The notes under the pieces were generated by a model that saw nothing but the letters and a program-made list of their open reading frames with translations, was not told the origin of the DNA and did not search any database. The translations under genes and the position numbers were made by a program. A DNA stretch of 61,428 nt, from assembly GCA_903879715.1 (NCBI GenBank), contig CAIRMR010000052.1, positions 1 through 61,428 of the forward strand, read 5' to 3'. This DNA is from an uncultured Bacteroidales bacterium. GTDB lineage: Bacteria; Bacteroidota; Bacteroidia; Bacteroidales; UBA4417. Below are positions 2,705 through 59,657 of the stretch, in pieces; within the stretch, counting starts at the first letter, position 1, and the number at the start of each line of letters is the position of its first letter.

Positions 2705-2728
2705 GGGGAGAAAATTATGAGTTATGAA

Positions 2729-12973: not shown

Positions 12974-13564
12974 ATGAGAACCATATTACAATCTTTGAAA
13001 CAACACATCCAGCCGGGTGAAGTATACAGACGTTCAGATATTGAAAACTGGACAACAGCTGTAGACAGGCATTTGCACATGCTTACTGAAGATGGAACTC
13101 TTCAGAAGCTAAGCCAGGGAATCTACTATGCACCTAAGAAATCAAAATTCGGTGTTAGCCCTCCTACCGATCATAGTTTGATTGAACGTTTTCTAAAGGA
13201 TGATACTTTCCAGCTTTTTTCACCGAATGTCTATAACTCATTAGGATTGGGATTGACTCAATTATACAATACTACCTGGGTATATAACCACAAGCGCAGA
13301 GGGATATTCACCCTGAACGGAAGAAGCTTTCTTTTCAAGCTAAAGTCAGCTTTTCCTACAACCCTAAGCCGTGAATACCTGGTTGTTGACCTTCTGAATA
13401 ACCTGAGCGTACTCGCTGAGGATTCAGAAAAGGTACTGGCTAATTTCATAAGAAATATTAATCTTTTCGATGCAGAAGAATTAAAGAAAATGGCAAGTAA
13501 ATATGGAACCGGAAGTGTAAGAAAGTTGCTTTTTTCAACACTAAAAAAAATACAATATGCCTGA
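12974..13564 (+). CDS. abiEi: AbiEi-family antitoxin (DUF6088-like)
   Basis: This 196-residue protein has an N-terminal winged-helix region (SLKQHIQPGEVYRRSDIENW, then LTEDGTLQKLSQGIYYAPKK, residues about 6-56), which in the family binds the operon promoter, and a C-terminal domain ending in FSTLKKIQYA. It precedes and overlaps by 8 bp (ATGCCTGA) a nucleotidyltransferase-type toxin gene, the standard AbiE order. In known type IV systems the antitoxin does not bind the toxin but represses the operon and counters toxin action. The short leader and -7 element next to the start would suit autoregulation. The length is typical of the Bacteroidota version. Confidence 0.88.
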   Translation: MRTILQSLKQHIQPGEVYRRSDIENWTTAVDRHLHMLTEDGTLQKLSQGIYYAPKKSKFGVSPPTDHSLIERFLKDDTFQLFSPNVYNSLGLGLTQLYNTTWVYNHKRRGIFTLNGRSFLFKLKSAFPTTLSREYLVVDLLNNLSVLAEDSEKVLANFIRNINLFDAEELKKMASKYGTGSVRKLLFSTLKKIQYA

Positions 13565-37843: not shown

Positions 37844-38860
37844 GAATGAGAAATTAATGGGCGTTGAAAGTAATTGTAAGAAAATACAAGCTAATTATAT
37901 TAAAAAAGGAATGAAGCTTTTAATCATTTAAAGGAAATGCTTAAAAGCTTAAGTGCAAAATTCTGTTACATGAAATCAAAGGTAGCATACTTATTTGATT
38001 TGCGGCTTCGATATCAAGTTTAATCAGATTATGAATTATTTATCATCTATTAATGGTGGCTGTGTATATCCAATATGCTCAAAACATTTTGGGCAGCAGA
38101 AGTCAATTATAAAACTGCTTTCGCTCATGTCTTCTATTTTAAGTTCTTTTCCTAATCCTTACCAGCCACAGGAGGGATACAAAATCTTTGATATTAAAGA
38201 TGAAGAATTAAAAGAGCATAAAGTATATGAAGATATTAAATTAAGTCTTGACGTTTTTAAACAATATAACGCTCTATCAACAAAAATTGAGATAACCCAG
38301 ACTGTCGAAGATGAATGGTAAAAATAATGAATGCACAGTTGGAGGCTATGACCAATAGTGGGTTTTAAAGCAAAATCAAAAGTTTTGCTACAAGCAGGAT
38401 TGACGCGGAATTCCTTTTGTTGCGTCAGATTTTTAGTGTGAATGTCAAAAAGATTGCAAAGGAAAGCCTGACCCCAAGGAAGGAATGGAATACCTGCATT
38501 ATTAGACATAAGAAATGAATATTATACTGGAAAACAGCAGGAAATAAGACGCGATCCAACAAGAGAATGCTGAATTGGTAGATTTGTATCGTACGGATGA
38601 GGAGGTAGGATGCGGGTGAACGGATGGATAATATACATCAAAAATAATGTAAAAAGGAAGTAATTTTATAATATATTTGTTGGAATTTCATAATACAGAA
38701 ATTTCTTTTAAAGCAAAAACATGTAGGAATAGATTTTTTGTTTAGCAACAAATATTAAATAATATTTCAAAATAAAATATTCGCAATGTATTGTATATGA
38801 TCATATTAATAGCATGCAATCTTTATATTTTGAAATTACTTACAAAACAAAGTAAAAGGG
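37844..38860. other. Gene-poor stretch before the ATPase-nuclease gene
   Basis: Apart from a weak plus-strand frame at 38031-38321 nothing convincing is encoded. The right part (38640-38860) is very AT-rich and includes TATATTTG at 38673-38680, a -7-like element, though it is about 180 bp before the ATG. Around 38395-38590 lie GACGCG-containing segments related to those at 32618-32810. Confidence 0.5.
38031..38321 (+). CDS. Doubtful 96-residue frame
   Basis: From the ATG at 38031 the frame reads MNYLSSINGGCVYPICSKHF and ends YNALSTKIEITQTVEDEW. The last 45 residues (from KIFDIKDEELKEHKVYEDIK) have a coding-like composition; the first half does not. It could be a decayed gene end left in the intergenic region. 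Nothing supports a function. Confidence 0.25.
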   Translation: MNYLSSINGGCVYPICSKHFGQQKSIIKLLSLMSSILSSFPNPYQPQEGYKIFDIKDEELKEHKVYEDIKLSLDVFKQYNALSTKIEITQTVEDEW

Positions 38861-41359
38861 ATGGGTTATATAAAAAAGATTGAAGAGTCGAAGCTAAAAG
38901 TGTATAACCAGGCTGTTGCGACCAGAATACTGGATCTAATAAATAAGCTTCGGCTTAATTCGAATGAATATGATGAAAGGCGCTGGATATGGGAGTTGAT
39001 CCAAAATGCAAAGGATGTTGCATTTGAAGATCAAGGAGTTTCGATATGCATTGATCTTGAGATAAATAACGATAGTTACCTGGAATTACGGCATAATGGA
39101 AAACCATTTTCGATTGATAATATTACTTTTTTAATTGAGCAGGTCTCAACTAATGACAGAATAAATGAAACTGACAGCAAAAACAGGACGACAGGACGAT
39201 TTGGAACCGGTTTTCTGACAACCCATCTGCTTTCAGAAGAAGTGGAAGTGAAAGGAGTTGTAAAGGAACCAAACCTTCCATATAAAAAATTCTCACTCCA
39301 ATTAGACCGAAGCGGAACTAAAATTGATGAAATAATCCGAGCTGTAAATCAATCAATAGGTTTGCTGAGCGAGCTTGATAACACTGAGGAATTTAAAGAT
39401 TTTGACAAGAAAGATCATAACACTACTTTCCGCTACTCTATCGATGAAAACGGAATTACTGCTGCAAAGAAAGGGATAAGCGACCTGGAAATATCGTTGC
39501 CTTTTACCCTGGCTTTTGTGCCAAGCATTAAATCGGTTTGTATCAATAACAGCATAACTTATAGTTTGCTGCCACAAGTTACTGTAGAAGGTGAGAACAT
39601 AGATATATACACAATTAACAAGAAAACAGGATCTGAAACAGTTGATTTTAATATCGCAGTTGTTTCCTCCGACAGAGTTTCGGTTGCGATACAAATTGAG
39701 TATAAAGATGAATCTATTTACATTATTGAACCTTCAGAGAAACTACCAAAGTTATTTTGCGATTTCCCACTAGTGGGGTCAGAAGATTTCAATATGCCGG
39801 TGATCGTGCATAGTTCACTGTTTAATCCTACTGAACCACGTAATGGAATATTTCTTTCAGATAAGGCAGGAAATCAAATCGTTGAAAATAAGAACCTGCT
39901 TATTGAAGCAAGAGATTTGTATTTTAAACTGTTACGTTTTGCCGCACAAAATAATTGGCAGAACATGTATGTTTTAGCTAAAATAGCATTACCAAAAGCA
40001 AAAGACTGGATATCACGAGAATGGTTTGCGGACTTGATTTTAAATCCGGTGAGGCAAGAGCTGCTGAGGACTCCATTAATTGATAATCCGGTATATGGAA
40101 GAATTCCTATTGAGTGCAGTGAATTTAATAATATGCCTAAAGGTGCAAGAGTTGATTTCCCAAAACACGCGAAGAGTGCCATTCTTGCAAAATTCTGGAA
40201 TATCTGCAATAATAGTTACTTCCTGTTACCAAATGAGAATGATTATCTTGAATGGTCAAAAATAATATGGGATGAGAAATACATAATAAACTTAAACAGC
40301 ATAATTAAGCTCATTGAACTAAAAGGGAATATTGATGCACTTTCAAAAACATTAGGTAAAACCAAACAAGATACCATTGAATGGCTAAATGAGTATTATG
40401 CCTTATTGGTAGAAGAAGCTGACCTGATAAGAGATATATCAACTAAAGCAATTTACCCAAACCAAAATGGGATTTTCAAAAAAAAGGAGGAACTTTTATT
40501 TGAGAAAACCATAATATCGGAAATGCTTAAAGATATTGTAAAAGACTTAGGAAATGATTTCAGAGAGAAACTGCTTGATAATGAAATCAAAATAGAATTA
40601 CCACAAAACAGCATTTGTATAGCAGCTGGAGTTGCCAACGAAATTACTAACCTGATTAAACACCGGTTGGCAGAATTGCAGCGAAGTGCTGAAACTAAAT
40701 CAATCTTTAAAAAACTCTATCTTTGGTTCAGTCAAAACAAGGAGGAAGCAGATAAGATATTTGATTACCTTTATAAGAATAAGCACAAATTGCTTGATGA
40801 TGAGGAAATTGCTTCAAGTATTGAAAAAGCGGGAATCTATGAAGAGCTATTAAAAGAGGATCCATTGCTTTCGCTGGAAAGAATTAAACAGTTGCTGGAA
40901 CTGGAAGAATTGAGCAAGGGTTTTGATCCTGGCCAACCATACGCTCCTGACGAAGAGCAAAAAAGAAAAAACTTTTTAACTGGCTGGAAGGGAGAGGCAT
41001 ATGTTTGGAAAGTGTTGTTAGAAAAAGGATTTAGTGTAGAATGGCCAAACAAATCCGAAAATGCAACTTCAAATATTATAGTTGATTTTGAAGGCGAGAA
41101 GCATTTTATTGATGATAAAGGGCAAAAATATGATCTTCTAATAAAATATCCGGACAAAAAGAATGCTTATGTACAGGTTAAATCAACAACAACGAATATT
41201 AGAAGAGCTAATGAAATAGCCTTGCCGATCAGCGTGCGGGAATGGGATTTTGTAAATGAAAAAGCTGACGATGATACATATTATTTAGCCAGGGTATTTG
41301 ATGTATCTTCGGCGCCGGATGTGTATTTTATGAAAGTTGATAAAATAGAAACCATTTAA
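38861..41359 (+). CDS. Sacsin/Hsp90-type ATPase with C-terminal DUF3883 domain
   Basis: The N-terminus of this 832-residue protein is a GHKL ATPase of sacsin type: RRWIWELIQNAKD (E45, N49), LRHNGKPFSIDN (77-88, the D-x-G equivalent) and GRFGTGFLTTHLLSE (112-126). The middle is long and helical. Residues about 705-832 match DUF3883: KGEAYVWKVLLEKGFSVEW, YDLLIKYPDKKNAYVQVKST (a PD-(D/E)XK-like D...QVK site) and RANEIALPISVREWDF. Related proteins are found in prokaryotic defence islands, where the ATPase may act as a switch for the nuclease-like end. It leads a run of five paralogous genes on the same strand, 25 bp before the first. Motifs look intact. Confidence 0.88.
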   Translation: MGYIKKIEESKLKVYNQAVATRILDLINKLRLNSNEYDERRWIWELIQNAKDVAFEDQGVSICIDLEINNDSYLELRHNGKPFSIDNITFLIEQVSTNDRINETDSKNRTTGRFGTGFLTTHLLSEEVEVKGVVKEPNLPYKKFSLQLDRSGTKIDEIIRAVNQSIGLLSELDNTEEFKDFDKKDHNTTFRYSIDENGITAAKKGISDLEISLPFTLAFVPSIKSVCINNSITYSLLPQVTVEGENIDIYTINKKTGSETVDFNIAVVSSDRVSVAIQIEYKDESIYIIEPSEKLPKLFCDFPLVGSEDFNMPVIVHSSLFNPTEPRNGIFLSDKAGNQIVENKNLLIEARDLYFKLLRFAAQNNWQNMYVLAKIALPKAKDWISREWFADLILNPVRQELLRTPLIDNPVYGRIPIECSEFNNMPKGARVDFPKHAKSAILAKFWNICNNSYFLLPNENDYLEWSKIIWDEKYIINLNSIIKLIELKGNIDALSKTLGKTKQDTIEWLNEYYALLVEEADLIRDISTKAIYPNQNGIFKKKEELLFEKTIISEMLKDIVKDLGNDFREKLLDNEIKIELPQNSICIAAGVANEITNLIKHRLAELQRSAETKSIFKKLYLWFSQNKEEADKIFDYLYKNKHKLLDDEEIASSIEKAGIYEELLKEDPLLSLERIKQLLELEELSKGFDPGQPYAPDEEQKRKNFLTGWKGEAYVWKVLLEKGFSVEWPNKSENATSNIIVDFEGEKHFIDDKGQKYDLLIKYPDKKNAYVQVKSTTTNIRRANEIALPISVREWDFVNEKADDDTYYLARVFDVSSAPDVYFMKVDKIETI

Positions 41360-41384
41360 TCCATCTCTTGAAAAACTAATTATT

Positions 41385-41834
41385 ATGCCAATAGAAGATT
41401 TAGAAGAAGGAATACAGAATGATAAAATAGTTGTCAAAAATAAGGAAGTGTTTGCTAAAAGTAATACTGTTATTGCAGGATTTGCAGTAAGGCACCCTCT
41501 TTATGAATGCAAATTACTATTATTGGGTTTTACTGACGTATACCCAAGCGATCAAGAAAATACGAAAGTGACAGGTATGCATTTTATGCCTCCTGACTAT
41601 TACAAAAGTATACCCTTTTATCCCAAATTAGTGATTGATTTGAAACAAAACCCTTATAATCATTATGTTAATGATGAAAGAGAAATTAAGTTCAATTACT
41701 ATTATTACTTAAACATAACTGATAAATTTGCAAGGCATGGTTCGGATGTTATTTACGCAATATGTAAATACAGAGAAGACGGAAAAATCAAACATGCATT
41801 TTTCAATTTACATGAGATAACACCTGATTTATAA
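41385..41834 (+). CDS. MPIE-family protein 1 of 5
   Basis: The 149-residue protein starts MPIEDLEEGIQNDKIVV. Shared family blocks are VIAGFAVRHPLYECKL with LLGF (about 30-50), KLVIDLKQN (about 82-90), a Tyr-rich NYYYYLNI and the terminal IYAICKYREDGKIKHAFFN followed by LHEITPD. It is closest to copy 2 (same length, same QNDKIVV and VIDLKQN), so these two duplicated most recently. It follows the ATPase-DUF3883 gene by 25 bp and an operon is likely. There is no signal peptide or membrane segment, and I do not recognise a known domain. A predicted small beta-rich soluble protein. Confidence 0.75.
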   Translation: MPIEDLEEGIQNDKIVVKNKEVFAKSNTVIAGFAVRHPLYECKLLLLGFTDVYPSDQENTKVTGMHFMPPDYYKSIPFYPKLVIDLKQNPYNHYVNDEREIKFNYYYYLNITDKFARHGSDVIYAICKYREDGKIKHAFFNLHEITPDL

Positions 41835-41851
41835 ATTAATAACCATCTATT

Positions 41852-42304
41852 ATGCCGATAGAAAATATAGACGAAGAAATGCAGAATGACAAAATAGTTG
41901 TTCAGAACAAAGATGTTTTTGCTCATGGCAATATTGTTGTTGCAGGATTTCTTGTTAAAAATCCCTTGTATGATTGTAAGCTGCAACTAATAGGGTTTAC
42001 TGATCATTATCCAACAGAACAAGAAAAAACACAAGTAGTTGGTATGCGGTACCACCAAGTAAACTCTTATCCCTATTATAATATTTATCTAAAAATGGTA
42101 ATTGATTTAAAACAAAATCAGCACAAAAATTTTGTTGAAGTGAACGCCACTGAATCGAGATATAATTATTATTTTTATGAAAATATTGCAGATAAATTTG
42201 CAGGACACTATTCTGATAGAATGTATGCTGTTTGCAAATACAGGGAAGATGGAATTATTAAACATGCATTTTTCAATTTACACGAGATAACACCGGATAT
42301 TTAA
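41852..42304 (+). CDS. MPIE-family protein 2 of 5
   Basis: The 150-residue protein begins MPIENIDEEMQNDKIVV and ends KHAFFNLHEITPDI, nearly the same ends as copy 1, while the middle (MRYHQVNSYPYYNIYLKMVI) differs. This pattern of fixed ends and variable centre runs through the array. It is 17 bp after copy 1 with an AT-rich leader (CATCTATTATGCC) that recurs as TATTATGCC or ATATGCC before other members, so translation is probably initiated in the same way for all. The function is unknown. Confidence 0.75.
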   Translation: MPIENIDEEMQNDKIVVQNKDVFAHGNIVVAGFLVKNPLYDCKLQLIGFTDHYPTEQEKTQVVGMRYHQVNSYPYYNIYLKMVIDLKQNQHKNFVEVNATESRYNYYFYENIADKFAGHYSDRMYAVCKYREDGIIKHAFFNLHEITPDI

Positions 42305-42322
42305 ATTAAAACACTAAATAAT

Positions 42323-42925
42323 ATGCCGATAGAAAATATTGAAGATGTAAACCAAACAAGTGTGGTGGTCTCTGAACAGAATCTTTTTCAGACAACTAAT
42401 GTAATAATTGCAGGGAAGATTAAGGTTAAACATCCATTGATGGATGAAACACTCTTATTGCTGGGATTTGTAATTGAAGATCAATACTTTAATGAAAATA
42501 ATTTCAGAGTTAAAGGTCTGGAGATTAGTTATTTTAGAGAATATTTGAATGGTGGTGAAGTTGAAACACAATACACCTCCTCAAATTCAATTATTTATCC
42601 AAAAATAATTATTGATAAGAAAACAAATCATTGTTCAAGTTATTTTAAAGACCAGCCTCTTGTTTGGAGAGATATTAGTGGGAAAAGAAATAATGATGCT
42701 TATTTAAAAGATGGCAAATATTTTTGGAAGCCTGACGGAGTTGGTGGTGAATGTTGGTATGAAACAACTTACAACTATTACTTGTTCAAGGATGTTTTTG
42801 ATAATTGGCCCGAATGTGCCACTAATAATATATATGCCTTAAGCAAATACAAAGAAAACGGGGTTTTTAAACATTGCATTTTCAATTTTCACGAATTAAC
42901 TTTAGTTGAAGAAAATAAAAACTAG
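42323..42925 (+). CDS. MPIE-family protein 3 of 5
   Basis: The 200-residue version begins MPIENIEDVNQTSVVV. It has the family core VIIAGKIKVKHPLMDETL and LLLGFVIED, an added RVKGLEISYFREYL strand, IIYPKIIIDKKTN, then an extra 40-residue insert (YLKDGKYFWKPDGVGGECW) before NYYLFKDV and the end IYALSKYKENGVFKHCIFNF with HELTL. It is most like copy 4. The insert carries charged and glycine-rich loops, as a changing binding surface might. It is 18 bp after copy 2. Confidence 0.75.
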   Translation: MPIENIEDVNQTSVVVSEQNLFQTTNVIIAGKIKVKHPLMDETLLLLGFVIEDQYFNENNFRVKGLEISYFREYLNGGEVETQYTSSNSIIYPKIIIDKKTNHCSSYFKDQPLVWRDISGKRNNDAYLKDGKYFWKPDGVGGECWYETTYNYYLFKDVFDNWPECATNNIYALSKYKENGVFKHCIFNFHELTLVEENKN

Positions 42926-42931
42926 ATTAGT

Positions 42932-43504
42932 ATGCCGATAGAAAACGTAGAAGACGAATATAAAACAAATGCAGTTGTTAAGCATCAAGATATTTTGCAG
43001 ACAAACAACGTAATTGTCGGGGGAAAAATTAAAGTAAAACATCCTTTGCTTGCTGAAACTCTTTTATTAATAGGGTTTGTGGTTGGTGATAAAAATTTAA
43101 ATTTTGAGGAATTTAGAGTTAAAGGAATGAGTATAAAATATAAAATCGATGAAACATCTTTCGCTTCCCAAAACGATATTATATATACTAAGTTAATTAT
43201 TGATTCTAAAAAACTTCATTTTTCAAATTATTACAAGTCAGATGAAGAGTTTAGATATAGGGATAATGTGAATGTGAATGATTATAAAAAACATTTATTA
43301 AGTGACTCTTCAATTCATTATTTATATGGTGGGAAGTATTCTCGTCTAAACTTCGAATATAAATTTGATTACTATTTATATGAAAAACCTAGTTCTGAAA
43401 TACCAGAATGTGTTTCAAATGAAGTATATGCTGTTTGCAAATACATTAAGGATAATATTTTTAAGTATGCATTGTTTAGTTTTCATGAGCTGATGCCAGA
43501 GTAA
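42932..43504 (+). CDS. MPIE-family protein 4 of 5
   Basis: The 190-residue protein begins MPIENVEDEYKTNAVV, continues VIVGGKIKVKHPLLAETL and LLIGFVVGD, and has FRVKGMSIKYKID, YTKLIIDSKK and a Tyr-rich KFDYYLYEKP before PECVSNEVYAVCKYIKD and the end FKYALFSFHELMPE. The conserved PEC-x-x-N-x-YA-x-x-KY block before the tail is shared with copies 3 and 5. Only 6 bp separate it from copy 3, the tightest spacing in the array and strong evidence for one transcript. Confidence 0.75.
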   Translation: MPIENVEDEYKTNAVVKHQDILQTNNVIVGGKIKVKHPLLAETLLLIGFVVGDKNLNFEEFRVKGMSIKYKIDETSFASQNDIIYTKLIIDSKKLHFSNYYKSDEEFRYRDNVNVNDYKKHLLSDSSIHYLYGGKYSRLNFEYKFDYYLYEKPSSEIPECVSNEVYAVCKYIKDNIFKYALFSFHELMPE

Positions 43505-43525
43505 AGAACCAAAAATAAAAATATT

Positions 43526-44089
43526 ATGCCAATAGAAAATACAGAGGAAGCCCTTGCCCCGATTGAAAAAGGGATTGAAACGAACAGGACGGTTATGGCT
43601 GGATTGGCTGTGCGACATGCGTTAATTCCTTATCGGTTTATTATTGAAGGGTTTGTGATAGAGGATAAGTATTTTAATCCAAATGATTTTCGGGTAAGAG
43701 GATTTAAAATTGAATATAAAAATGAAGCTGGCATTTATGAATCCGTAAATAATAAAATTTATGAGAAAGTAATTTGTGATGGGAAAAACAACAGTATTTG
43801 TTATTATTTAGGTGATGCTCAGATTGAAATGAGATCGTCATCCAGTAGTTTAATTTATCAGTATGAGGGGGCATTAAAATATCATTATTACAATTCTGGC
43901 AATGGCAGAAGTGCATTGAGTAAAGATTATTTAAAATCACTGAAATATAATTTTTATCTTTTTGAAACAACTGATACAGAAACACCTACGTGTGTTACAA
44001 ATGAGATCTACGTTTTATGTAAATATTGGGAGGAAGGTAAATTTAAATATATGATTTTCAATCTGCATGAAATCAAGCCAGATATTTAA
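43526..44089 (+). CDS. MPIE-family protein 5 of 5
   Basis: The most divergent copy (187 residues) begins MPIENTEEALAPIEKGIETN, then VMAGLAVRHALIPYRFIIEG and FVIEDKYFNPNDFRVRGFKI, with Ser-rich MRSSSSSLIYQYEGALKYHY in the centre, and ends PTCVTNEIYVLCKYWEEG followed by FKYMIFNLHEIKPDI. The first seven and last fifteen residues still match the other copies. It converges with the coiled-coil nuclease gene (22-bp gap), so the array ends here. The function is unknown. Confidence 0.75.
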   Translation: MPIENTEEALAPIEKGIETNRTVMAGLAVRHALIPYRFIIEGFVIEDKYFNPNDFRVRGFKIEYKNEAGIYESVNNKIYEKVICDGKNNSICYYLGDAQIEMRSSSSSLIYQYEGALKYHYYNSGNGRSALSKDYLKSLKYNFYLFETTDTETPTCVTNEIYVLCKYWEEGKFKYMIFNLHEIKPDI

Positions 44090-44111: not shown

Positions 44112-46580
44112 TTACTGTGAAACAATCCTGTATGCCCATCCTAGAAGGGCAACAGCTTCATCGAATTTTTCTTTGTAACCGGCAAGATCTTTCAGATCAG
44201 CAAAATCCTGGAGAATCATGTCGCTCCAACCGATCTCTTTAGTAACCATCTTACCATCATACTTTTTATACATCCCGATAGCTTCATCTTTACTACCGCT
44301 CACCAAGAGATAGTGGGCATAATTGCCGGCGGTGGTTAAATCAGTCTCTATCAAATAGGAAGGAATAAGCTTTGAGATGTGATCACAAAGCTGTAAGTCG
44401 CCTTTTTTCAATGGATACCACAAACCAGCCCTAAAGGAAGTAATGTGACCTAAGCCTAAAAATTTTATATCAAATAATTGGATAGCTTGTATCCGATGGA
44501 TATAAAAATGACGTTGTGCTTCTCTCAACATACAGAATGAAGTTATCATTGAACCTTTGTTCTCGTAATAGTTTGCCCACATGTAGTCCCCAAAATGTTC
44601 TTTTGAATCGCCTTCATAACTATTCATTGCAATATTCCTGAATGTAATATCGGCCTTGCCATCCTCATATTCCATGCGAACAGGATTGCAATTATAAATT
44701 GCTTCCTTTACAAGTTCATACAACTTATCATTATTTTCGGAGCCCGGATTGTTATAGAGCGGATATTTATAAGGTGAATCAAGACCTTCGATATCGATAA
44801 TAATTTCAAATGGGACAAATGCAGACTTCTCCTCAACCAGGTTAAAGCCTGCAATCCCTTTTTTGAATTTTTGTACTTCTTGATTATGGTTTTCGAGTAT
44901 TAGCTGATCTTCATAGGGATGTTGGGTAATCTTTATGTATCTATTCGCTATACTGTTTAATTTTCCTTCAATGATAGAATAATCTATTTCCGGGAGAATA
45001 TCTTCGGATGGGGGAATACCAGAGAAAGGTGATTCATCTATGATAGCTGGGTCCAAATCAACGATTGTATCTAAATTGAGGTATTTTTCACGATACATGT
45101 CAATCGCGTATTCCTGGGCTTGCTCATAGGTCCAGCGAGGTACAAATTCAGGCTTGAAATCCAAGAGCAAAGAATCAAAGGAAGACTCCGTGGTGATTAT
45201 TTTCAATACAAGGCTTATGTATTTTAGGCAATCTTCCGTTTTTGAGTTTACCTGTTCCTCGCTGAACCGAATAACAACCCATCCCTGGCTATTAAAATAG
45301 AGGTTACGAAGGTAATCGGATGATCCGATGTAATGAAGGGGCTTACGCGAAACAATATCATAGGGTTCATCAATTTCAATATCAATACACAGATTGTGTT
45401 TCGGCCAAAAAAGTGCAAGATCAGGCCTGTAGCTGTAATCCCTATTCCGAATGCTGAGGGCTATATTTGTCAATATTTCGATATCCGGAGCATGTTCCTT
45501 AATTGAATTGACGGCCTTCATTAAAATGGGTTCAGTGACCCCTGTAGTTGTATTTGATTTTGCTTTATGCCATTTAAGAACAGGGGTGTTGAATTTGGGA
45601 TAGAAAACATCCGGAAAATCAGAACTATCCAGTTTATTGAATTGCCTTAAATTGAAAAGAAATAGGCCGATATAGTCGAAACCATTTTCGCCGGTTTCAA
45701 AGCTTTTTGAAGAACGCTTGCCGATATTCCTGCCAATATGTTCAACAATTACATCATCAACTTTTTGCAGTGTTTTGGGCGAGAGTTCTTCCTTATGAGA
45801 TATCACTGGAGGAACAGTTTCGCTCCGGAGCAAATCTATGTCAGACTGAAGAGCGCTTATTTTTTCATTACCTGAATCAATATTCTTTCTTAAAGTTTCG
45901 ATTATATTGTCCTTGGTCTTGGAATTAACTGCTTCAGCCTGGAGTTGACTAACCCGCTCTTTGAGATTACGAATCATTTCCGATTGATTTGATTCGCTTT
46001 CTTTATAGGGTATCAATTGTTCATTCAGATTACTTATTTCATCTTTCTGTGCTATGTATTTTGACTCAATCTTTTTCAACTCAGAAATAATTTCTGATTG
46101 CTTTGATTCGTTTGCTTTAATTAATGCCAACTGTTCATGTAGGTTGCTAATTTCGTTTACCTGACCGGTGAATTTTAGCTCACTATCATTCAGTCGAGAT
46201 TCAACGGAAAGAATCTGACCCTGTAAAGTTTTTAAATTTTCTTTTAATTTCTCCTTTTCAATAGTAAGTGTTTGATTCGCATGTAAATCCTCATCCTTTT
46301 TCGCTTTAAGTGAAATCAAATTTGAGTGGGCTACAGTTGTTTCCGTTTTCAGAGCTGCATTTTCAGTTTTCAGAACTTCAAGTTCATTTATTGCCGCCAG
46401 GAGCAATTCTTCTTTATTATGTAATTGTTCATTAAGTAATTTGTTATGTTTTTCAGAGTCAATATTAATGTGCTTTAATAAGCTATTTGAGGATTCAAGT
46501 TTTTGATTATCTGATAATAGTTTAGGAATATCAATACCCAAAAGGTATTTTAATAATTTATAAATTAGTGTTTTAATCAT
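44112..46580 (-). CDS. Coiled-coil PD-(D/E)XK-like nuclease with WYL-like segment
   Basis: The 822-residue protein starts with a short hydrophobic helix (MIKTLIYKLLKYLLGIDIPK), then a coiled coil from about 20 to 255 (for example NEISNLHEQLALIKANESKQ, repeated as DEISNLNEQLIPYKESESNQ). Residues about 375-465 form a nuclease-like core: YRPDLALFWPKHNLCIDIEI (D387, ExD about 402-404), then DYLRNLYFNSQGWVVIRFSE. Residues about 640-715 (IYNCNPVRMEYEDGKADITF; LREAQRHFYIHRIQAIQLFD) resemble a WYL domain, and TPR-like helices end the protein. A ligand-controlled nuclease is the natural reading. It is convergent with the MPIE array. Confidence 0.75.
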   Translation of the reverse strand: MIKTLIYKLLKYLLGIDIPKLLSDNQKLESSNSLLKHINIDSEKHNKLLNEQLHNKEELLLAAINELEVLKTENAALKTETTVAHSNLISLKAKKDEDLHANQTLTIEKEKLKENLKTLQGQILSVESRLNDSELKFTGQVNEISNLHEQLALIKANESKQSEIISELKKIESKYIAQKDEISNLNEQLIPYKESESNQSEMIRNLKERVSQLQAEAVNSKTKDNIIETLRKNIDSGNEKISALQSDIDLLRSETVPPVISHKEELSPKTLQKVDDVIVEHIGRNIGKRSSKSFETGENGFDYIGLFLFNLRQFNKLDSSDFPDVFYPKFNTPVLKWHKAKSNTTTGVTEPILMKAVNSIKEHAPDIEILTNIALSIRNRDYSYRPDLALFWPKHNLCIDIEIDEPYDIVSRKPLHYIGSSDYLRNLYFNSQGWVVIRFSEEQVNSKTEDCLKYISLVLKIITTESSFDSLLLDFKPEFVPRWTYEQAQEYAIDMYREKYLNLDTIVDLDPAIIDESPFSGIPPSEDILPEIDYSIIEGKLNSIANRYIKITQHPYEDQLILENHNQEVQKFKKGIAGFNLVEEKSAFVPFEIIIDIEGLDSPYKYPLYNNPGSENNDKLYELVKEAIYNCNPVRMEYEDGKADITFRNIAMNSYEGDSKEHFGDYMWANYYENKGSMITSFCMLREAQRHFYIHRIQAIQLFDIKFLGLGHITSFRAGLWYPLKKGDLQLCDHISKLIPSYLIETDLTTAGNYAHYLLVSGSKDEAIGMYKKYDGKMVTKEIGWSDMILQDFADLKDLAGYKEKFDEAVALLGWAYRIVSQ

Positions 46581-47596: not shown

Positions 47597-50062
47597 CTAG
47601 CTTGGACTATTAGTAAAATGATGAAGGATGGAATCGAGGAAATAGGATCTTGATCTTGGGAATGCTTTTCCCCACTGATTAACGGAAATAGTATGGCTGG
47701 TGAGAATGAGGCGTTTTTTTGACCGGGTTAATCCAACATAGATCAGCCTTGCGTCTTCTGTAATTGCCTCTGCTGTTTTGCTGTAATAGTGGGGATATAT
47801 ATCATTGACACATTCGGGAATGATGACATTATCGAATTCGAGGCCTTTTGCTTTGTGAATGGTGGAGATGACTACTTTATCATTATCGGTGATCAGATCG
47901 GATTCCTTGCAGGTTTTATAATGGGGCAAATCCTTTTGCAAGAGTGTTTTCAATAGCTTGGAACCACACTTATTATCCATGTTAACGAGAAGCTTTTCAA
48001 TTTGATTGATTGAGCCTTGTTCTATTTCATAGTTTACAGTAAGATTGGAATGACTAAGAAACAGATCAATTACAGCACGAAAAGTAGTTTCAAGGTTAAA
48101 AGTAGCCTGGATTTTTAACCAAAGGCTAAGAAGGTTGGACCTGAATCTGAGTAAAATTCTTTCATGTTCCTCAGCAAAAAGGAGCTGTGCTTTAAAAAGA
48201 TTCTCAATGCGAGGAAGCAGGAACTGGATTAAATTGGCAGTGGCTTTCACGTCGTCGAGAGCATTATGAGAATTGACGCCTTCGATTTTAAAAGTCTCGA
48301 TAAGGTACTCCAATTTATAAGAATTTTGTTTGGGGAATAGACGACGGGTTATTTCCAACGTATCAAAGTTGACTGCCGAATATTGACTGCTGGTTTCGAT
48401 TCCCTGGCGGTTATTATTTGATTTTAAAATTTCCAAGTCGTAATTGAGATTGTGAGCGATTAAAGGATTACCGTTAACGAAATTTTTAAACCTGGTAAGC
48501 GCTTCTTCAGAAGGAATAGCGTGCAAATCAAGATATTCATTCGTGATGTGGTGAACATGCTCAGTTTCGGCCAGGCTTTTATCGGTTTGGATGTAAACCT
48601 CAAACGTTTCACCAATTACTCCCTGGATGATTTCCACGGCTGCAATCTGAATAATATCATCAGTTTCGGTATTGAGCCCTGTGGTTTCGGTATCGAAGAC
48701 GACAACGCGGTCGTTTTTGTAATGATGCAGAAATTCCTCGAAGACAAAAATACCGGATGCGCTGGAATTTAAAAAATCGGATGGAAGGAAACCATGCTCT
48801 AAAATTAAGTTTACAAAATGACGGGATTCTTTGAGCGATTGTGTTTTGCCAAATATATTGAAAAGCCTAAACCATGAAACGCGATCGAATGGATTTGAAA
48901 TGCAGCTAAGGAAAGCTAAAATGTCTTTTGTAAGTTTGCGGCTGAACAAATCAAAGCCTGAGATGCAAAAGTGTTCGATATTGGATTCAGATAGCTTATT
49001 GCTAACTATTTCGGCGGTTTTGTTGGTACGGATAAGAATTGCGGTTTGCTTGCCCTGCTCTTTTATATATGCAGATACAAGATTTGCTGTTATGAAAGCT
49101 GCTTCATCATAGGTGGTACCCGGTACCTGATAAATTGAGAGGTCGCCGGGCTGGGGAAGGGTTACTGTTTTTGAAAACGGATCTCTTTTCCATGAAGGAG
49201 AAAGGTGGCGTTTGGCATAATCGACAAATATTTTTATAAGGTAGGAAGGAGACCTGAAATTTTCCTGAATATCGTTGTGTACTTTGCATGTTTTTTCGAG
49301 TGCAGGAAGGCGATCGAGACTGGCTCCGGTAAAGGAAAAAATAGATTGTTCGTAATCCCCAAAATAGACAATATGTGCGTTTTCGGTTGCAATGAGTTTA
49401 AGTATTTCCCACTGTATGGGGTTGATATCCTGTGCTTCATCGACCTGTATCCATGAATATTTAGTGAGTTCGTATTCTACTGTAGAATTGAGGAGATTAT
49501 AGTACGTGAGCGTTAAAAGATCATCAAAGTCGAGTAAGGAGGATTCTTCTTTGAGTTGTTCGTATTTGATGCAAACATTTTTTGCCAGTTCATTTTCGGG
49601 AGTTAAATCTTTAGGTGGCATGAGCAGATCATCCGGAAAATCGAGAGAAGTCTGTTTGATATATGTATTTAGTTTTAGTAGTTCATACGGTTTCAATTCA
49701 GCAAGTGGGTCTTCAAGAGAGATTGCTTCCTGAAGGAGCAAATTGGAATCCTCATCATCAAGGACTGAAGTGAACTGAGATAGTAATTTGTTGCGAAACA
49801 AAAAGTTAGAGCAAAAATTATGGATATTGCCAATAAATAATCCCTTGGTGGAGTGTTTGACTTCAATTCGCTCTTTCATTGCCTTTGCTGCACGATTGGT
49901 GAAGGTAAGGCAAATGATTTCTTCGGGAGGTACATGGTTGTTGAGAGCCAGATCGACGCGATGTGAAAGGAGTTCTGTTTTACCGGTGCCGGGAGGGGCT
50001 AATACAAGATGCTGGCCTTCGGAGAGGTTGATGATTTTTTGTTGTTCGGGGGTGATGGTCAT
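47597..50062 (-). CDS. UvrD-family helicase with inserted DnaQ-like exonuclease
   Basis: The 821-residue protein has SF1A helicase motifs: TPEQQKIINL (Q motif), LAPPGTGKTELL (21-32), LTFTNRAAKAM (52-62), WIQVDEAQD (204-212), and C-terminal STIHKAKGLEFDNVIIPE and LIYVGLTRSKKRLIL. Between residues about 452 and 618 sits a complete DEDDh exonuclease: VVVFDTETTGL (D457, E459), IAHNLNYDLEIL (D542) and SHNALDDVKATA (H599, D604). The insertion falls within the second helicase half, so unwinding and 3'-5' digestion are physically joined. Such an enzyme suits repair or destruction of invading DNA. All motifs look intact. Confidence 0.9.
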   Translation of the reverse strand: MTITPEQQKIINLSEGQHLVLAPPGTGKTELLSHRVDLALNNHVPPEEIICLTFTNRAAKAMKERIEVKHSTKGLFIGNIHNFCSNFLFRNKLLSQFTSVLDDEDSNLLLQEAISLEDPLAELKPYELLKLNTYIKQTSLDFPDDLLMPPKDLTPENELAKNVCIKYEQLKEESSLLDFDDLLTLTYYNLLNSTVEYELTKYSWIQVDEAQDINPIQWEILKLIATENAHIVYFGDYEQSIFSFTGASLDRLPALEKTCKVHNDIQENFRSPSYLIKIFVDYAKRHLSPSWKRDPFSKTVTLPQPGDLSIYQVPGTTYDEAAFITANLVSAYIKEQGKQTAILIRTNKTAEIVSNKLSESNIEHFCISGFDLFSRKLTKDILAFLSCISNPFDRVSWFRLFNIFGKTQSLKESRHFVNLILEHGFLPSDFLNSSASGIFVFEEFLHHYKNDRVVVFDTETTGLNTETDDIIQIAAVEIIQGVIGETFEVYIQTDKSLAETEHVHHITNEYLDLHAIPSEEALTRFKNFVNGNPLIAHNLNYDLEILKSNNNRQGIETSSQYSAVNFDTLEITRRLFPKQNSYKLEYLIETFKIEGVNSHNALDDVKATANLIQFLLPRIENLFKAQLLFAEEHERILLRFRSNLLSLWLKIQATFNLETTFRAVIDLFLSHSNLTVNYEIEQGSINQIEKLLVNMDNKCGSKLLKTLLQKDLPHYKTCKESDLITDNDKVVISTIHKAKGLEFDNVIIPECVNDIYPHYYSKTAEAITEDARLIYVGLTRSKKRLILTSHTISVNQWGKAFPRSRSYFLDSILHHFTNSPS

Positions 50063-53888: not shown

Positions 53889-56800
53889 TTATCCAACAGC
53901 CATTTTCGCAGAGTTTTTCCAGAAATAAGGCGGCATAGGTTCACTGAGTTCCCAGGTGATGCTCATTGGTTTTGAGCCTGTGTATTCAACAAATCTTGCA
54001 TCTCCTAGAAAAACATATGAAATTGTATTTTTATATTCATCTTCATTCTTTTCCCTGACAAACAATAATATTTTCTTATTAAGTACTTGTTGATTAATAT
54101 AGGATAGGCCTTTCCCTTTATCAGGTCTCGATGAATTCTGAGTTTGCCAGTGAAACAAACGATCACTAATAGCAAAATCCTGATACAGAGTAGATGGAGA
54201 GAAATCTTTTTCGGACTTGATAAGGTCGATAAATAGAATTTCTGTGTTTAGGTTCTTATTTTCAGCTACACCGACACCTATTTTGTTTGATGACACTTTT
54301 TCAAATGTTGACATGTTAAATGCAACTAATATCTGATCTCTAGTATATCGACTATGAAGCTTTAGTGGCTGATTGTAAGGAAATAAAATATCTTTTTCTA
54401 AGAAATTGATCTTATCTAATAAAATTTCAAGGACTTCAATAATTTCACTGGTCAGAACTTTATTTCTACCAATTGTTCTGATACTTTCTTCCAGCGTATC
54501 AAAGCTGCCAGCAGTTTGCCATACATCATAATGCAACATTAAAGCCATTGACTTTTCTGTATCCTTTAATTCGTTCAGGTTAATTTCAAAATTAATACTG
54601 GCTAAAGATAGAATAAACTGGAAGTAAGAGGTAGAACTACATGACAACCATTTTTTACTAATAGCCCGGCTAATTTCAGTTTCATTAACGGCTGGAAAAT
54701 CTTCAATTTGTGTTGCTGTTACGCACAATCTTTTCCAACTCCCTTTTTTATATAGAGTTTGTAATGGAATGTGATAGAAGTTCATAAAATTCTTGAGTGA
54801 AAGCGGCAAAGTAGTTTGATACTGGTAGTTTCGAATTTTGTTAATTAATTGGTTTATATTCAGTGAGGTTGCATTTTTAATATTCTGCAAAATAATATCT
54901 TTTGCTTTTTTCTCCAGAACAATCGTACATCCTAAGGGTAGATGAGGAAAGTCATCTTCAATTTCTTTTGGAGTCGAAGTATTAGTTGGACCAACCAATG
55001 CCCGGAATTTACCTTCAAAATCATATTCCGGTCTTGAATTTCCAACAAAATCCAGCACTGTAAGGCATTCCTTATTTTCAGCAAGCCTTAATCCCCTTCC
55101 TAGTTGCTGAAGAAAAACAGTTAAACTTTCTGTAGGACGAAGGAAAAGAACAGTATCAATTTCTGGAATATCAATACCTTCATTAAAAATATCAACAACG
55201 AAAAGGTAATTGATTTCTTTATTCTGGAGCTTTCTGCGAATTTCTTCTCTTAATTCAGACCTAGAACTGACCAGATAGTCTGCTTTTAATTGTGCGAGGG
55301 TAAATTTTTCTGCCATGTATTGAGCATGCTCCTGCGTTACACAAAAACAAAGTGCTCTTACATCATCAATATCTCTCAGGTACTTATTGAGATTGGTTAT
55401 TATTTCACCAACCCTTATATCATTGTGCGTATAGATTTGAGTAAGTTCACTTGGAAGATATTTCCCATTTTGCCATTGTACCAGAGATAAATCGATACTA
55501 TCTGAAATTCCGAAGTACTGGAATGGACAAAGCAATCTTCTGTTTAAAGCTTCCGGCAACCTGATTTCAGCAGCAATTGTTCCTGAGAAATCCTCAAGAA
55601 TGTCTGCTCCATCCATCCTTTCTGGTGTTGCAGTTAAACCTAAAAGAATTTTAGGATTGAAATGATTTAATATAGGTCGGTAGCTTGAAGCTGCAATATG
55701 ATGTACTTCGTCAACAACAATGAAATCGTAAAATGATTCTGAAAGGGTTAATTTATCAATTCTGTTATTTAATGTTTGAACGGAAGCGAAAACGCAATTG
55801 TATGTTTCAGGTTCAATTCCATCAACCCACAACTCACCAAAATTATTATCCCGTAAAACTCCTTGAAAAGTTGCTTGCGCCTGTTGCAGTATTTCTTTGC
55901 GGTGAGCTACAAATAAAAGTGTTGAATTCGGATACTGCTTTTTAAAGTTTTTAAAATCAAAAGCAGAAATAACGGTTTTACCAGTTCCTGTAGCAGCAAC
56001 AATTAAATTCCTGAAACGGTTGTGAACTATTCTTTCAGTCTGAAGATTTTCTAAAATCTCCTCCTGAAATGGGAATGGTTTGATATCGAAGTAAGAAGCA
56101 GAGTTGTTCCTGCCGTGAGTTCTCTCTTTTTTTAGCGCAATTCTTAATTTCTCACTATGGTGAATTTTATCAAATAATTCAAAGTCTTTATCTTGCCAAT
56201 ATGTATCAAAAGTTTTCTGGAATTTAACAATAATGTGCTCAGCTTCCCTTGTTGTTACTTTAAGATTCCATTCCAAACCAGTTGTTAAAGCTGAACGAGA
56301 AAAGTTAGAAGACCCTATATAGCCCGTGTGAAATCCGGTGTTTCTTAAAAACAAGTAAGCCTTTGCATGTAATCTTTCATTGTCAGTATTGTAAGAAACT
56401 TTTATCTCTGTATTCTTTAATCCTGATAAGTATTCTACGGCTTTTAAATCTGTTGCTCCCATGTAGGAGGTAGTTATGACTCTAAGTTGACCGCCTCTTT
56501 CGGTAAACTCAAATAATTCTTTCTCGAAAATTCTTATTCCAGTCCATTTGATAAACGATACAAGGAAATTTATTTTATCTGAAGAAAGAATTTCTTTTTT
56601 GATTTCGCTTTCGAGAGATATACCTGCATTGTTTCCGGTAAATAGTTCGCTTTGAGATAACCGAGTATAAGGAGTTATTTCTTTCAAATGTTTGTCGAAA
56701 TCAGAGAATCTTGCATCGATCTTTTTAAAAATTGCAGAAAGCATCTTTGCTTCTGTTGCTATTATATCTTCATCAAATTCCTCGTCCTTCAGTTCTGTTC

Positions 56801-57035
56801 TCAAAAGAAAAATAATCTTGTTTGAAAGCTCGATTTGTTTTTCAATACTGTCGTCTCCAGTTATAAGATTGAGCGCAAAACGAATTACTTCAACCAGGTA
56901 TTGAGACAACAGCCTTGATGCCTCATTTTTATCGATGGGACTTTCTTTTATGTAATAAGTATTTCTATCCAAATTATTCAATTTGGAAGAGATCAGTTTG
57001 TTTATAAGTTGCTCATAGAGTCCAAGTTGTGTCAT
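53889..57035 (-). CDS. PLD-nuclease/SF2 helicase with DUF3427
   Basis: The 1048-residue protein joins three parts. Residues about 130-280 form a phospholipase-D-type nuclease domain with RLHAKAYLF (H223, K225) and YIGSSNFSRSA (239-249). Residues about 320-700 are an SF2 helicase: VAATGTGKTVIS (347-358), VVDEVHHIAAS (440-450), LGLTATPERMDG (465-476), then FNEGIDIPEIDTVLFLRPTE and QQLGRGLRLAE. The last 300 residues match the DUF3427 layout. The nuclease plus translocase plan is frequent in defence islands. The gene overlaps the Nudix gene by 23 bp. Motifs are intact. Confidence 0.9.
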   Translation of the reverse strand: MTQLGLYEQLINKLISSKLNNLDRNTYYIKESPIDKNEASRLLSQYLVEVIRFALNLITGDDSIEKQIELSNKIIFLLRTELKDEEFDEDIIATEAKMLSAIFKKIDARFSDFDKHLKEITPYTRLSQSELFTGNNAGISLESEIKKEILSSDKINFLVSFIKWTGIRIFEKELFEFTERGGQLRVITTSYMGATDLKAVEYLSGLKNTEIKVSYNTDNERLHAKAYLFLRNTGFHTGYIGSSNFSRSALTTGLEWNLKVTTREAEHIIVKFQKTFDTYWQDKDFELFDKIHHSEKLRIALKKERTHGRNNSASYFDIKPFPFQEEILENLQTERIVHNRFRNLIVAATGTGKTVISAFDFKNFKKQYPNSTLLFVAHRKEILQQAQATFQGVLRDNNFGELWVDGIEPETYNCVFASVQTLNNRIDKLTLSESFYDFIVVDEVHHIAASSYRPILNHFNPKILLGLTATPERMDGADILEDFSGTIAAEIRLPEALNRRLLCPFQYFGISDSIDLSLVQWQNGKYLPSELTQIYTHNDIRVGEIITNLNKYLRDIDDVRALCFCVTQEHAQYMAEKFTLAQLKADYLVSSRSELREEIRRKLQNKEINYLFVVDIFNEGIDIPEIDTVLFLRPTESLTVFLQQLGRGLRLAENKECLTVLDFVGNSRPEYDFEGKFRALVGPTNTSTPKEIEDDFPHLPLGCTIVLEKKAKDIILQNIKNATSLNINQLINKIRNYQYQTTLPLSLKNFMNFYHIPLQTLYKKGSWKRLCVTATQIEDFPAVNETEISRAISKKWLSCSSTSYFQFILSLASINFEINLNELKDTEKSMALMLHYDVWQTAGSFDTLEESIRTIGRNKVLTSEIIEVLEILLDKINFLEKDILFPYNQPLKLHSRYTRDQILVAFNMSTFEKVSSNKIGVGVAENKNLNTEILFIDLIKSEKDFSPSTLYQDFAISDRLFHWQTQNSSRPDKGKGLSYINQQVLNKKILLFVREKNEDEYKNTISYVFLGDARFVEYTGSKPMSITWELSEPMPPYFWKNSAKMAVG

Positions 57036-57536: not shown

Positions 57537-58403
57537 CTAGTATTCTTGTTTAGTTGGAATTACACCTCGCACTCCACCTCTTGGTTTTTCTACATCGCCA
57601 ATATAACGTGGAATCAAGTGTATATGCACATGTGAAATTGTTTGACCAGCCGACTCGCTAATGTTGATACCAATATTGTATCCATCAGGATGAAACTTAT
57701 TGTTGATAGTTTCTTTCACCCGATTTAGCATAAACCAACATGCAGACTGTTCTTTGAAAGTTAATTGAAAATAGTTGGCTATGTGCTTTTTGGGTATGAT
57801 TAGTGCATGACCTACGTTAACTGGGAATTTATCATAAATTGCATATGCAGTAGCAGATTCCATAATCAATTCCGTTTCTTTTTCCGGATTACAAAATGCA
57901 CAATCAGTATTTCCCTTTCTTTCAAATTGGTTGTAATGTTGGTATTCATAGATTTCACAATTTTCATTCTCGAATATGGATTGATATCCCAATTTTACAT
58001 TACACTGATAAGTTGGCTTCTGATGAATTTTATGAATTCTAAAACCCTCATATTGTAAATCTCTTCTTACTGCAAAATAGGCTTTGCCTGTCGGTTTCAG
58101 TAATTGTGAAACTTCAATCAGTACATTTGCTTGTTCTTCTGGCATTAAAACATTTAAAACGTAGAAGCAGATGATTGTATCAAATTTCTTAGCTGGGTAA
58201 TCGGGAAAGTAATAAGGATCATAACCAATAATGTTAAAATCCCTAGATTTAAAGACCTCAACATCCTTTCCAAATCCACATCCAAAATCTAACATCTCGC
58301 CGAGGAGTAACTTCTTATTCAATAAGAGCTTAGCAGGAAAAGAAAGAGAATCTCTTTCCTTAGCTGTCAGATGACTAAATATATTTGACTTTAGATTTCC
58401 CAT
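57537..58403 (-). CDS. Methyltransferase-HIT fusion protein
   Basis: The ATG at 58403 gives MGNLKSNIF and overlaps the HNH gene by 13 bp; the frame is open 12 codons further upstream but would overlap more. The first half (288 residues in total) is a SAM-dependent methyltransferase: EMLDFGCGFGKDVEVFK, YDPYYFPD, FDTIICFYVLNVL. From about residue 165 a HIT domain follows: CAFCNPEKE, VNVGHALIIPKKHI and the catalytic HVHIHLIPRY. HIT domains remove AMP or other nucleotides from phosphates or amines. Joined in one chain, they suggest modification of a nucleic-acid or nucleotide-like substrate. It is part of the operon 59503-53889. Confidence 0.9.
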   Translation of the reverse strand: MGNLKSNIFSHLTAKERDSLSFPAKLLLNKKLLLGEMLDFGCGFGKDVEVFKSRDFNIIGYDPYYFPDYPAKKFDTIICFYVLNVLMPEEQANVLIEVSQLLKPTGKAYFAVRRDLQYEGFRIHKIHQKPTYQCNVKLGYQSIFENENCEIYEYQHYNQFERKGNTDCAFCNPEKETELIMESATAYAIYDKFPVNVGHALIIPKKHIANYFQLTFKEQSACWFMLNRVKETINNKFHPDGYNIGINISESAGQTISHVHIHLIPRYIGDVEKPRGGVRGVIPTKQEY

Positions 58404-59503
58404 CCTTGATATCCGCGATTCGAAATTAAATAGTCGCAACGGCTCTGCAATTGTTTGATGGCTATATTTTGCCAGTCTCCAACCGGACTATTTCCAAGCA
58501 AAGCTAATTTTATTTCTTTTTGGAATCTTTGCGATTGATTTTCATTCAATAAACCCCAAAAATGAAGAATTAGGTCCTTTCTTTTTTCAATCATCTCAAC
58601 AGAAGGAATTTTATCACGTTTCTTATTGTTGGTAGCTGGCTGAGAAGGTAATAGATTCCATAAATCATTATTTCGCCATATTGAAAATGGAATCATGTGG
58701 TCAACATCATAATTTGTTATTTCTTTTCCTGTCCAGACACAAAATACTTTTCCTTCTTTTTTCAATATCGCTTTGTAAATCTTTTTTGATTCTTCGACAT
58801 CCCTAAGTGTGATTGGGCTTTTTAGAACCTCATTAATAACTTTTTCAACAGATAGATTTTTTCCTGACGCATTAACAGAGAACTCAGCCCATTTAAAAAG
58901 AATTGAATCCTGTCCACTTATGAAACTTCCCAGGAATTTAAATGATTCGTGATAGTCAATAGGAATTGAAAATGAACCAAAATTATCAATAAGGAATTCA
59001 GCATCAATGTTTTGGCTGGTCTTGATCCTTTTACCTGGTTCAAATTCAAAAATCGTATAGTAATGATTACTGACTGAACGGCCAATATATTTCATAGGCA
59101 TCTTCGTGATTGTGTCACTTAACTTTTTCGCTAATGCTATGAAATCTGATTTCAGATTATTTGGTATTCCTTTATTTTTCAAGTCGTTATAGAAAACAGA
59201 GAATCCGCCTGAATTGATATAAGCAGAAATTATTTTCTTAAACTGATTGCCAAAAGCCAGATTTGCTTCGCCATTAATCTGAGGAATATAGGTTGCTGAT
59301 TCCAAGACAGGATAATAGTAAAGCATCCATTTTTCAATAAGCAAGCCTGTTGGACAATACATCCTGTCATTACTGAATGATATAAAAGGAGAATTTTCCT
59401 GAATGATGTCAATGACACCGCGCAACAAGGCAAATTTATACGTAGTAGACTTACTATCCCGCTCTATAATTTTACTGATATTTGAAAATACCTCACTTCT
59501 CAT
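58391..59503 (-). CDS. HNH endonuclease
   Basis: The ATG at 59503 (MRSEVFSNISKIIERDSKST) is preferred; the frame is open 12 codons further upstream. The HNH core lies near residues 255-305 of this 370-residue protein: KVFCVWTGKEITNYDVDHMI, PFSIWRNNDLWNLLPSQPAT and NNKKRDKIPS. The DVDHMIP, N-LLP and N-KK-R order matches HNH_4-type nucleases used in many restriction and defence systems. The N-terminal 240 residues are unassigned and may carry target recognition. It is the first gene of the operon with the methyltransferase-HIT, Nudix and helicase genes. Confidence 0.85.
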   Translation of the reverse strand: MRSEVFSNISKIIERDSKSTTYKFALLRGVIDIIQENSPFISFSNDRMYCPTGLLIEKWMLYYYPVLESATYIPQINGEANLAFGNQFKKIISAYINSGGFSVFYNDLKNKGIPNNLKSDFIALAKKLSDTITKMPMKYIGRSVSNHYYTIFEFEPGKRIKTSQNIDAEFLIDNFGSFSIPIDYHESFKFLGSFISGQDSILFKWAEFSVNASGKNLSVEKVINEVLKSPITLRDVEESKKIYKAILKKEGKVFCVWTGKEITNYDVDHMIPFSIWRNNDLWNLLPSQPATNNKKRDKIPSVEMIEKRKDLILHFWGLLNENQSQRFQKEIKLALLGNSPVGDWQNIAIKQLQSRCDYLISNRGYQGWEI

Positions 59504-59657
59504 TGATAAATATATTGACGCTGCTGTAATACAATGCACTAAATTAAAAGAATGCGATCAAACGAAGCACGAAGTTAACAAGTTTGCATTAATAAAATCC
59601 GGTTAGTGAACTTTTAAATAGAAGTGTTAAATTCAATCACAGGAAGGAATTAATAAT

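Follow-up and report, generated by a model that had tools for sequence, protein, structure and literature searches.

A Tiamat-like ATPase gene with a fused NOV_C domain, followed by five tandem small paralogues, in an uncultured Bacteroidales bacterium

Can a bacterial defence ATPase be served by a set of small, diversified partners encoded directly behind it? The question is raised by a locus in the window analysed here, a stretch of 61,428 nt that is an entire contig (CAIRMR010000052.1) of the 6.07-Mb draft genome of an uncultured Bacteroidales bacterium (assembly GCA_903879715.1). A gene for a large GHKL-type ATPase (positions 38861-41359, plus strand, 832 residues) is followed on the same strand by five open reading frames (ORFs), p1 to p5, whose products are paralogues and are called MPIE proteins below. 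A sequence-only reading of this DNA had put the six genes forward as a candidate new system in which the small proteins could be variable sensors, adaptors or inhibitors recognised by the ATPase. The explanation that we favour, with a probability of about 0.35, is that a nuclease-fused, Tiamat-like anti-phage gene here shares an operon with the genes of five accessory proteins, a lineage-specific cassette.

The PADLOC profile for TmtA (PDLC03967), which we take to be the Tiamat protein, matches residues 3-581 with an E value of 4.1e-134. Within this region, residues 40-130 match the sacsin N-terminal ATP-binding-like domain of NCBIfam (NF047352; 63.8 bits against a cut-off of 50), and the Pfam family HATPase_c stays below threshold (20.0 bits vs 26.4). 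The C-terminal residues 748-823 match NOV_C/DUF3883 (Pfam PF13020) at 35.9 bits, above the cut-off of 22.1 (E 7.9e-09). The GHKL/sacsin ATPase and the PD-(D/E)XK-like C-terminal domain that had been read from the letters were thus recovered by profiles, and the TmtA match agrees with the proposed defence-type family. DUF4263, the Shedu signature, was not among the Pfam matches of the protein at E 1, and a sequence search of solved structures with the ATPase family returned HtpG as its sole match (E 0.0024).

The motifs of the ATPase half include a candidate catalytic residue, E45 (in ELIQNAKD), HNG at 78-80 and GRFGTGF starting at 112. GHKL proteins usually carry Asp in the first G box; the corresponding HNG lacks this canonical residue. 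H78 and N79 do not vary across seven aligned sequences and hardly vary across 23, so HNG is a trait of this ATPase branch. At the C-terminus, an alignment with five cyanobacterial relatives shows E712, D758 and K774 kept, with Q at position 772 in place of their D; Q-x-K occurs in Mrr-type nucleases. DUF3883 is termed "a novel REase domain" (REase, restriction endonuclease) in a table of PMC3710099. From these matches the large protein is probably a TmtA-type defence gene product. Since the ATPase is recognisable as TmtA-type, the core by its sequence belongs to a known kind and does not make a new system. As for the TmtA-NOV_C fusion, no description was found in the literature searched, which excludes most subscription papers.

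The five small genes were found with the strand, lengths and spacing first described. p1 (41385-41834, 149 residues) and p2 (41852-42304, 150 residues) are short forms; p3 (42323-42925, 200 residues), p4 (42932-43504, 190 residues) and p5 (43526-44089, 187 residues) are long forms. All ten pairs are significant by BLASTP, from E 4e-66 for p1/p2 (60% identity) to 4e-12 for p2/p5 (25%), which confirms the paralogy. Across the five, 24 alignment columns are invariant, the first of them reading MPIE. Synonymous divergence (dS; Nei-Gojobori method, NG86) is 1.08-2.89 in nine of the ten pairs and not computable in one, and nonsynonymous divergence (dN) is 0.27-0.66; the p1/p2 pair combines a dN of 0.27 with a dS of 2.9. 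With dS high or saturated and dN lower, the substitution estimates indicate that the paralogues split long ago and that purifying selection kept the protein sequence. The ten significant pairs and the high dS also rule out an assembly artefact or chance as the source of the paralogy, as well as a recent burst of copying.

Are the six genes expressed together? The gaps in the block are, in order, 25, 17, 18, 6 and 21 bp, and the block is closed by a convergent gene at 44112-46580. In the window as a whole (ORFs of at least 130 residues), 12 of 43 gaps between same-strand neighbours are 25 bp or shorter, and the block supplies five of these 12. Between 38000 and 44400, a scan for sigma-70-type promoters gave 27 sites compared with 30.5 in shuffled sequence, and a terminator scan gave three compared with 2.9; a promoter-like match upstream of p1 (41256-41284, plus strand) lies within this chance expectation. 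Given gaps of 6-25 bp and promoter- and terminator-like sites no more frequent than in shuffles, we infer that the MPIE genes probably share an operon with the ATPase gene.

The flanks of the block have features of their own. Upstream, about 1 kb 5' of the ATPase gene (37844-38860), there is no convincing gene; its six translations give only short or broken frames, possibly from a decayed gene. The convergent gene 44112-46580 encodes an 822-residue protein with a coiled-coil-like start, a DUF559-like stretch (below threshold) and a WYL/YodC-like end (PADLOC E 1.7e-09). It was considered as a part of the system and ruled out by a 53% identical copy elsewhere in the same genus. That copy adjoins genes that by eye resemble a type I restriction set, and its neighbourhood holds one other protein matching the window, which looks unrelated. 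When one same-genus neighbourhood was compared in search of an empty site, no matching flank was seen.

We then asked what lies behind other ATPases of this kind. Genome contigs were scanned and yielded 259 relatives; the analysis used the 80 best (loci L028-L107). Relatives are uncommon: at E 1e-20, a draw of 395 genomes from the phylum has eight with one, counting the genome studied here, and of 16 genomes of its genus this one alone has the ATPase. Two of 72,556 plasmid records hold a relative, both cyanobacterial, and a pattern scan found another on one viral contig (L120). In 58 of the 80 loci, a same-strand ORF of at least 100 residues starts between -60 and +150 bp from the end of the ATPase gene. 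A scan of 53 of these omitted the duplicate L049 as well as L046, L048, L066 and L068, in which the ORF is, or may be, the remainder of a split ATPase. Of the 53, 41 matched SLFN_AlbA_2, six CAP12 TIR, four SF1 helicase families and three PIN; one protein may match several families, and the set includes a small number of unrelated neighbours, for instance a transposase. On the viral contig, an AlbA-like ORF lies 24 bp behind the ATPase gene, and MPIE is absent. The comparison suggests that an effector-type gene lies directly behind most TmtA-type ATPases (41/53 scanned match Schlafen/AlbA_2), so that many such systems may have two parts; judged by these neighbourhoods, a TmtA-type system resembles a two-gene unit, in which the effector can be exchanged, more than a single gene.

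The fused NOV_C domain bears on the same slot. By Pfam at E 0.01 it was detected in 8 of 73 ATPase C-termini (five ends cut by the contig, a duplicate and the fragment L063 were left out), and it was confirmed above cut-off in the cyanobacterial loci L062, L071, L072 and L082. A purpose-built NOV_C profile found it in six of a slightly different 73, all six cyanobacterial. Where 300 bp or more of sequence follow the ATPase gene (73 loci), 45 loci have an AlbA-like gene within 2.5 kb of its 3' end. None of the six NOV_C-profile loci has one; of these, L068 stops 2 bp past the gene and L062 and L091 extend only 0.8 and 1.0 kb. As a statistical rule, replacement of the AlbA gene by nuclease fusion was rejected: it is confounded by clade, the cyanobacterial loci without detected NOV_C being without AlbA as well. 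Since AlbA_2 genes occupy this slot in most relatives, the fused nuclease would seem to be another form of effector. A search for neighbouring paralogues of 80-300 residues gave pairs in nine loci other than the window's, among them L090 with three near-identical pieces, and none of the other loci searched has a five-member array.

Does the MPIE array recur with the ATPase? Here the observations weigh against the favoured explanation. An MPIE gene was found in none of the 80 best relatives' loci by a profile search of the flanking sequence, nor beside the single viral relative, nor in any of 50 whole genomes holding such loci. The profile search covered ORFs of at least 40 residues in L010-L107, which include all 80 loci and the window's own (L012); its only other listings were a kinase in L027 (E 8e-4) and, in L095, the ATPase itself (E 0.75). 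Sequence behind the ATPase gene reaches at least 3 kb in 57 of the 80 loci and at least 300 bp in 73, so that an array could escape in some; the search of 50 genomes had no positive control within it, and its query does recover the home genome in other searches. The pairing of ATPase and MPIE is thus known from one locus, which is the greatest weakness of the explanation. To this we add that the TmtA match aligns positions 4-568 of a 1063-position profile, its N-terminal half only (the best stretches of six scanned relatives likewise fall in that half), and that the literature searched yielded no experiment tying a NOV_C-type TmtA to phage defence. Five NOV_C-fused cyanobacterial relatives (L062, L071, L072, L082 and L091) have no same-strand ORF of at least 100 residues within 150 bp behind them, where shorter ORFs are possible, and the GC content at third codon positions (GC3) is 0.22-0.26 in the MPIE genes vs 0.317 in the ATPase gene, the MPIE third positions being richer in AT.

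These last observations lead to the most serious competitor, in which a stand-alone ATPase-nuclease is encoded by a single gene. On this view the paralogues behind it form a lineage-specific cluster of their own that lies there by accident, perhaps brought in by a mobile element. The five fused relatives without a larger ORF directly behind them suggest that such an ATPase-nuclease may stand alone, MPIE genes are not seen beside other TmtA-type genes, and orphan families are generally frequent in genomic islands. The GC3 difference could reflect a separate origin of the MPIE genes, and several other genes of the window are equally low. Such a coincidence would have to produce a shared strand, a gap of 25 bp at the ATPase gene, five consecutive tight junctions and a convergent end, in a region where promoter- and terminator-like sites are not in excess. 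We regard independence as a real possibility, about as probable as the favoured explanation. That the MPIE proteins work with the ATPase, which gene order in one genome leads us to infer, comes close to an even chance.

We also asked how far the MPIE family reaches on its own. No convincing family was found in Pfam, PADLOC, NCBIfam or PHROGs, in line with the first impression of the family; the libraries returned stray matches to single members only. The strongest was phrog_1422 (function unknown; E 0.0016, one member of five), and the others were NF049879 (E 0.0063, 15 bits vs 950), PADLOC CARF5 (E 0.037), Pfam Ntox34 (E 0.063) and DUF6129 (E 0.079), both below cut-off, and two further PHROGs (E 0.18 and 0.23). 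The home genome holds the five MPIE genes only, with two extra matches at E 0.017 and 0.14. A profile built from the five sequences was run against genome draws that overlap one another. Among 198 relatives it matched two, the home genome and G068 (E 1.4e-4; the kinase of L027), the latter judged to be chance. The same two were the only matches in 393 genomes of the order at E 0.001, and the home genome was the only one in 395 of the phylum at that threshold. In the class, at E 0.01, eight of 395 genomes matched, the home genome and seven judged to be chance (E 8e-4 to 0.0055), where about four chance matches are expected from 395 genomes.

To judge the weak matches, ORFs of L008, L027 and L108-L114 were rescored, and alignments were viewed for L108, L111, L027, L109 and the start of L114. 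The matches were taken as chance; the best by eye were a peroxiredoxin, a sigma factor and a large sensor kinase, in partial alignments. Single-protein tblastn searches at E 1 covered p1, p3, p4 and p5: among plasmids (72,556 records) p1, p3 and p4 gave no match, and among phages (50,697 records) p3 and p5 gave none. The array as a DNA query was absent from the plasmid records. Pattern scans of viral and genome contigs, which need short exact peptide patterns and which distant relatives can escape, gave no confirmed MPIE gene. Apart from the matches put down to chance, these searches found the family solely at this locus.

If the MPIE proteins do act on the ATPase, in which direction do they act? 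One answer is that they are brakes, keeping the ATPase-nuclease inactive until they are displaced by phage proteins or by damage, with several copies giving redundancy or varied triggers. Small, slightly acidic proteins encoded directly after a potentially toxic nuclease, in five copies under purifying selection, would suit this role. A downstream position and five copies are in general atypical of an antitoxin, and five fused-nuclease relatives manage with no larger ORF directly behind, so we consider brakes unlikely. The pattern of conservation offers a different hint: the pairs share on average 42-50% identity in columns 1-50 and 176-211 and 31-41% in most of the middle, falling to 19%, with 41% gaps, in columns 106-155. 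Conserved ends around a variable middle would fit adaptors that all dock through one shared surface. That the MPIE proteins are adaptors or sensors rather than brakes is nonetheless a tentative choice, which we hold at rather less than even odds and below the prospect that they work with the ATPase at all.

An AlphaFold2 model with p3 as the first of the same five rows has a mean predicted local distance difference test score (pLDDT) of 59.5 and a predicted template-modelling score (pTM) of 0.56; 83 of its 200 residues lie at 70-90, and it is nearly all beta. Only two of the five p3-first models are near this pLDDT. A model with p1 first, at pLDDT 34, was not used. The model suggests that the MPIE proteins are probably mainly beta. 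In Foldseek searches, none of 345 matches in the PDB reached E 0.001, the best being a lipocalin at E 0.56 with template-modelling (TM) scores near 0.12, and none of 469 matches among viral models was significant (best E 0.2); the sequence search of solved structures with MPIE gave a best E of 0.13. Barrels like those of lipocalins and fatty-acid-binding proteins recur among the non-significant matches, a hint at most. They bring up another explanation, that the MPIE proteins carry out a different function themselves, for instance as secreted proteins or binders of small ligands, and that the ATPase, being of Hsp90 type, is their chaperone. Beyond the Hsp90 kinship and the predicted all-beta fold, little speaks for it: the Foldseek scores are poor, the MPIE start does not look like a signal peptide by eye, and a fused nuclease domain fits a chaperone badly. 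We consider this very unlikely.

Returning to the Tiamat-like gene with its accessory cassette, the following sequence of events would account for the locus. The Hsp90-like half of the ATPase would bind a sign of infection, dimerise and close on ATP, and closure would set the NOV_C domain at the C-terminus free to cleave nucleic acid; sensing by one half and cutting by the other are proposed by analogy with VcSduA, the closest experimentally tested counterpart in the literature consulted. The NOV_C nuclease would substitute for the Schlafen/AlbA_2 protein encoded behind most of the scanned relatives. The MPIE proteins would dock on the ATPase through their constant parts, and the variable part of each would present a distinct recognition surface, so that one ATPase-nuclease could serve several triggers. 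In its fullest form, this is a Tiamat-like ATPase-nuclease armed by five interchangeable, diversified adaptors of a family not seen before, one effector with many sensors laid out as a tandem array in an operon, which as a whole strikes us as quite improbable. If MPIE proteins do feed the ATPase, the locus would be a rare bacterial immune switch with a bank of paralogous sensors, and would offer a handle on what TmtA-type ATPases detect. One review (PMC12926258) places Tiamat among the systems of unknown mechanism.

The wider window holds further genes of defence type. Listed together as minus-strand genes are a type IV restriction endonuclease-like helicase-PLD-DUF3427 protein (53889-57035; PADLOC mREase_IV, E 5.5e-228), a UvrD helicase with an RNase_T/DEDDh exonuclease domain within its UvrD_C region (47597-50062), a Cas9-like HNH protein (58391-59539) and an SNF2 helicase (59802-61172). 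A single reading frame at 57537-58439 combines a methyltransferase-like part with a HIT domain (Pfam). An AbiE-like pair at 12974-14504 consists of a DUF6088-like protein (below threshold) and AbiEii (E 2.2e-27). On the minus strand between 16973 and 23598 lie a PP2C phosphatase (PADLOC PDC-M21C, E 1.7e-13), a DUF2779 protein and an AAA ATPase (PADLOC IetA, E 1.7e-23), with other ORFs interspersed. The mREase_IV-like, UvrD-exonuclease, HNH, SNF2, AbiEii and IetA-like genes raise the prior for a defence function of the ATPase locus. Near the start of the window are the large subunit of a phage terminase (4834-6006; Terminase_3, E 6.7e-23) and, on the opposite strand, two proteins that look phage-head-like by eye (1355-3940), with no Pfam family at E 0.001.

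How does the locus compare with known systems? With Tiamat it shares the sacsin/GHKL-type N-terminal half (residues 3-581), and it differs in its NOV_C C-terminus and the five MPIE genes behind, about half of the TmtA profile being matched. The common layout of a TmtA-type ATPase with a Schlafen/AlbA_2 gene has the same ATPase family and the same tight spacing of two genes, whereas here there is no AlbA_2 gene behind, the nuclease domain is fused and multiple different small genes follow. VcSduA, a Shedu-type protein, likewise joins an N-terminal GHKL ATPase and a C-terminal PD-(D/E)XK-like nuclease in a single protein, and changing either active site abolished its protection; it carries DUF4263, whereas the protein described here carries NOV_C/DUF3883 on an ATPase of the sacsin/TmtA branch, and small partner genes are unmentioned for VcSduA, unlike the five MPIE genes here (PMC12137116, in the portion of its text available). 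The cyanobacterial TmtA-NOV_C fusions (L062, L071, L072 and L082) are 1111-1299 residues long, have D-x-K where Q-x-K is found here and show no MPIE gene in the flanks examined; they share with this protein a C-terminal NOV_C domain on a TmtA-type ATPase.

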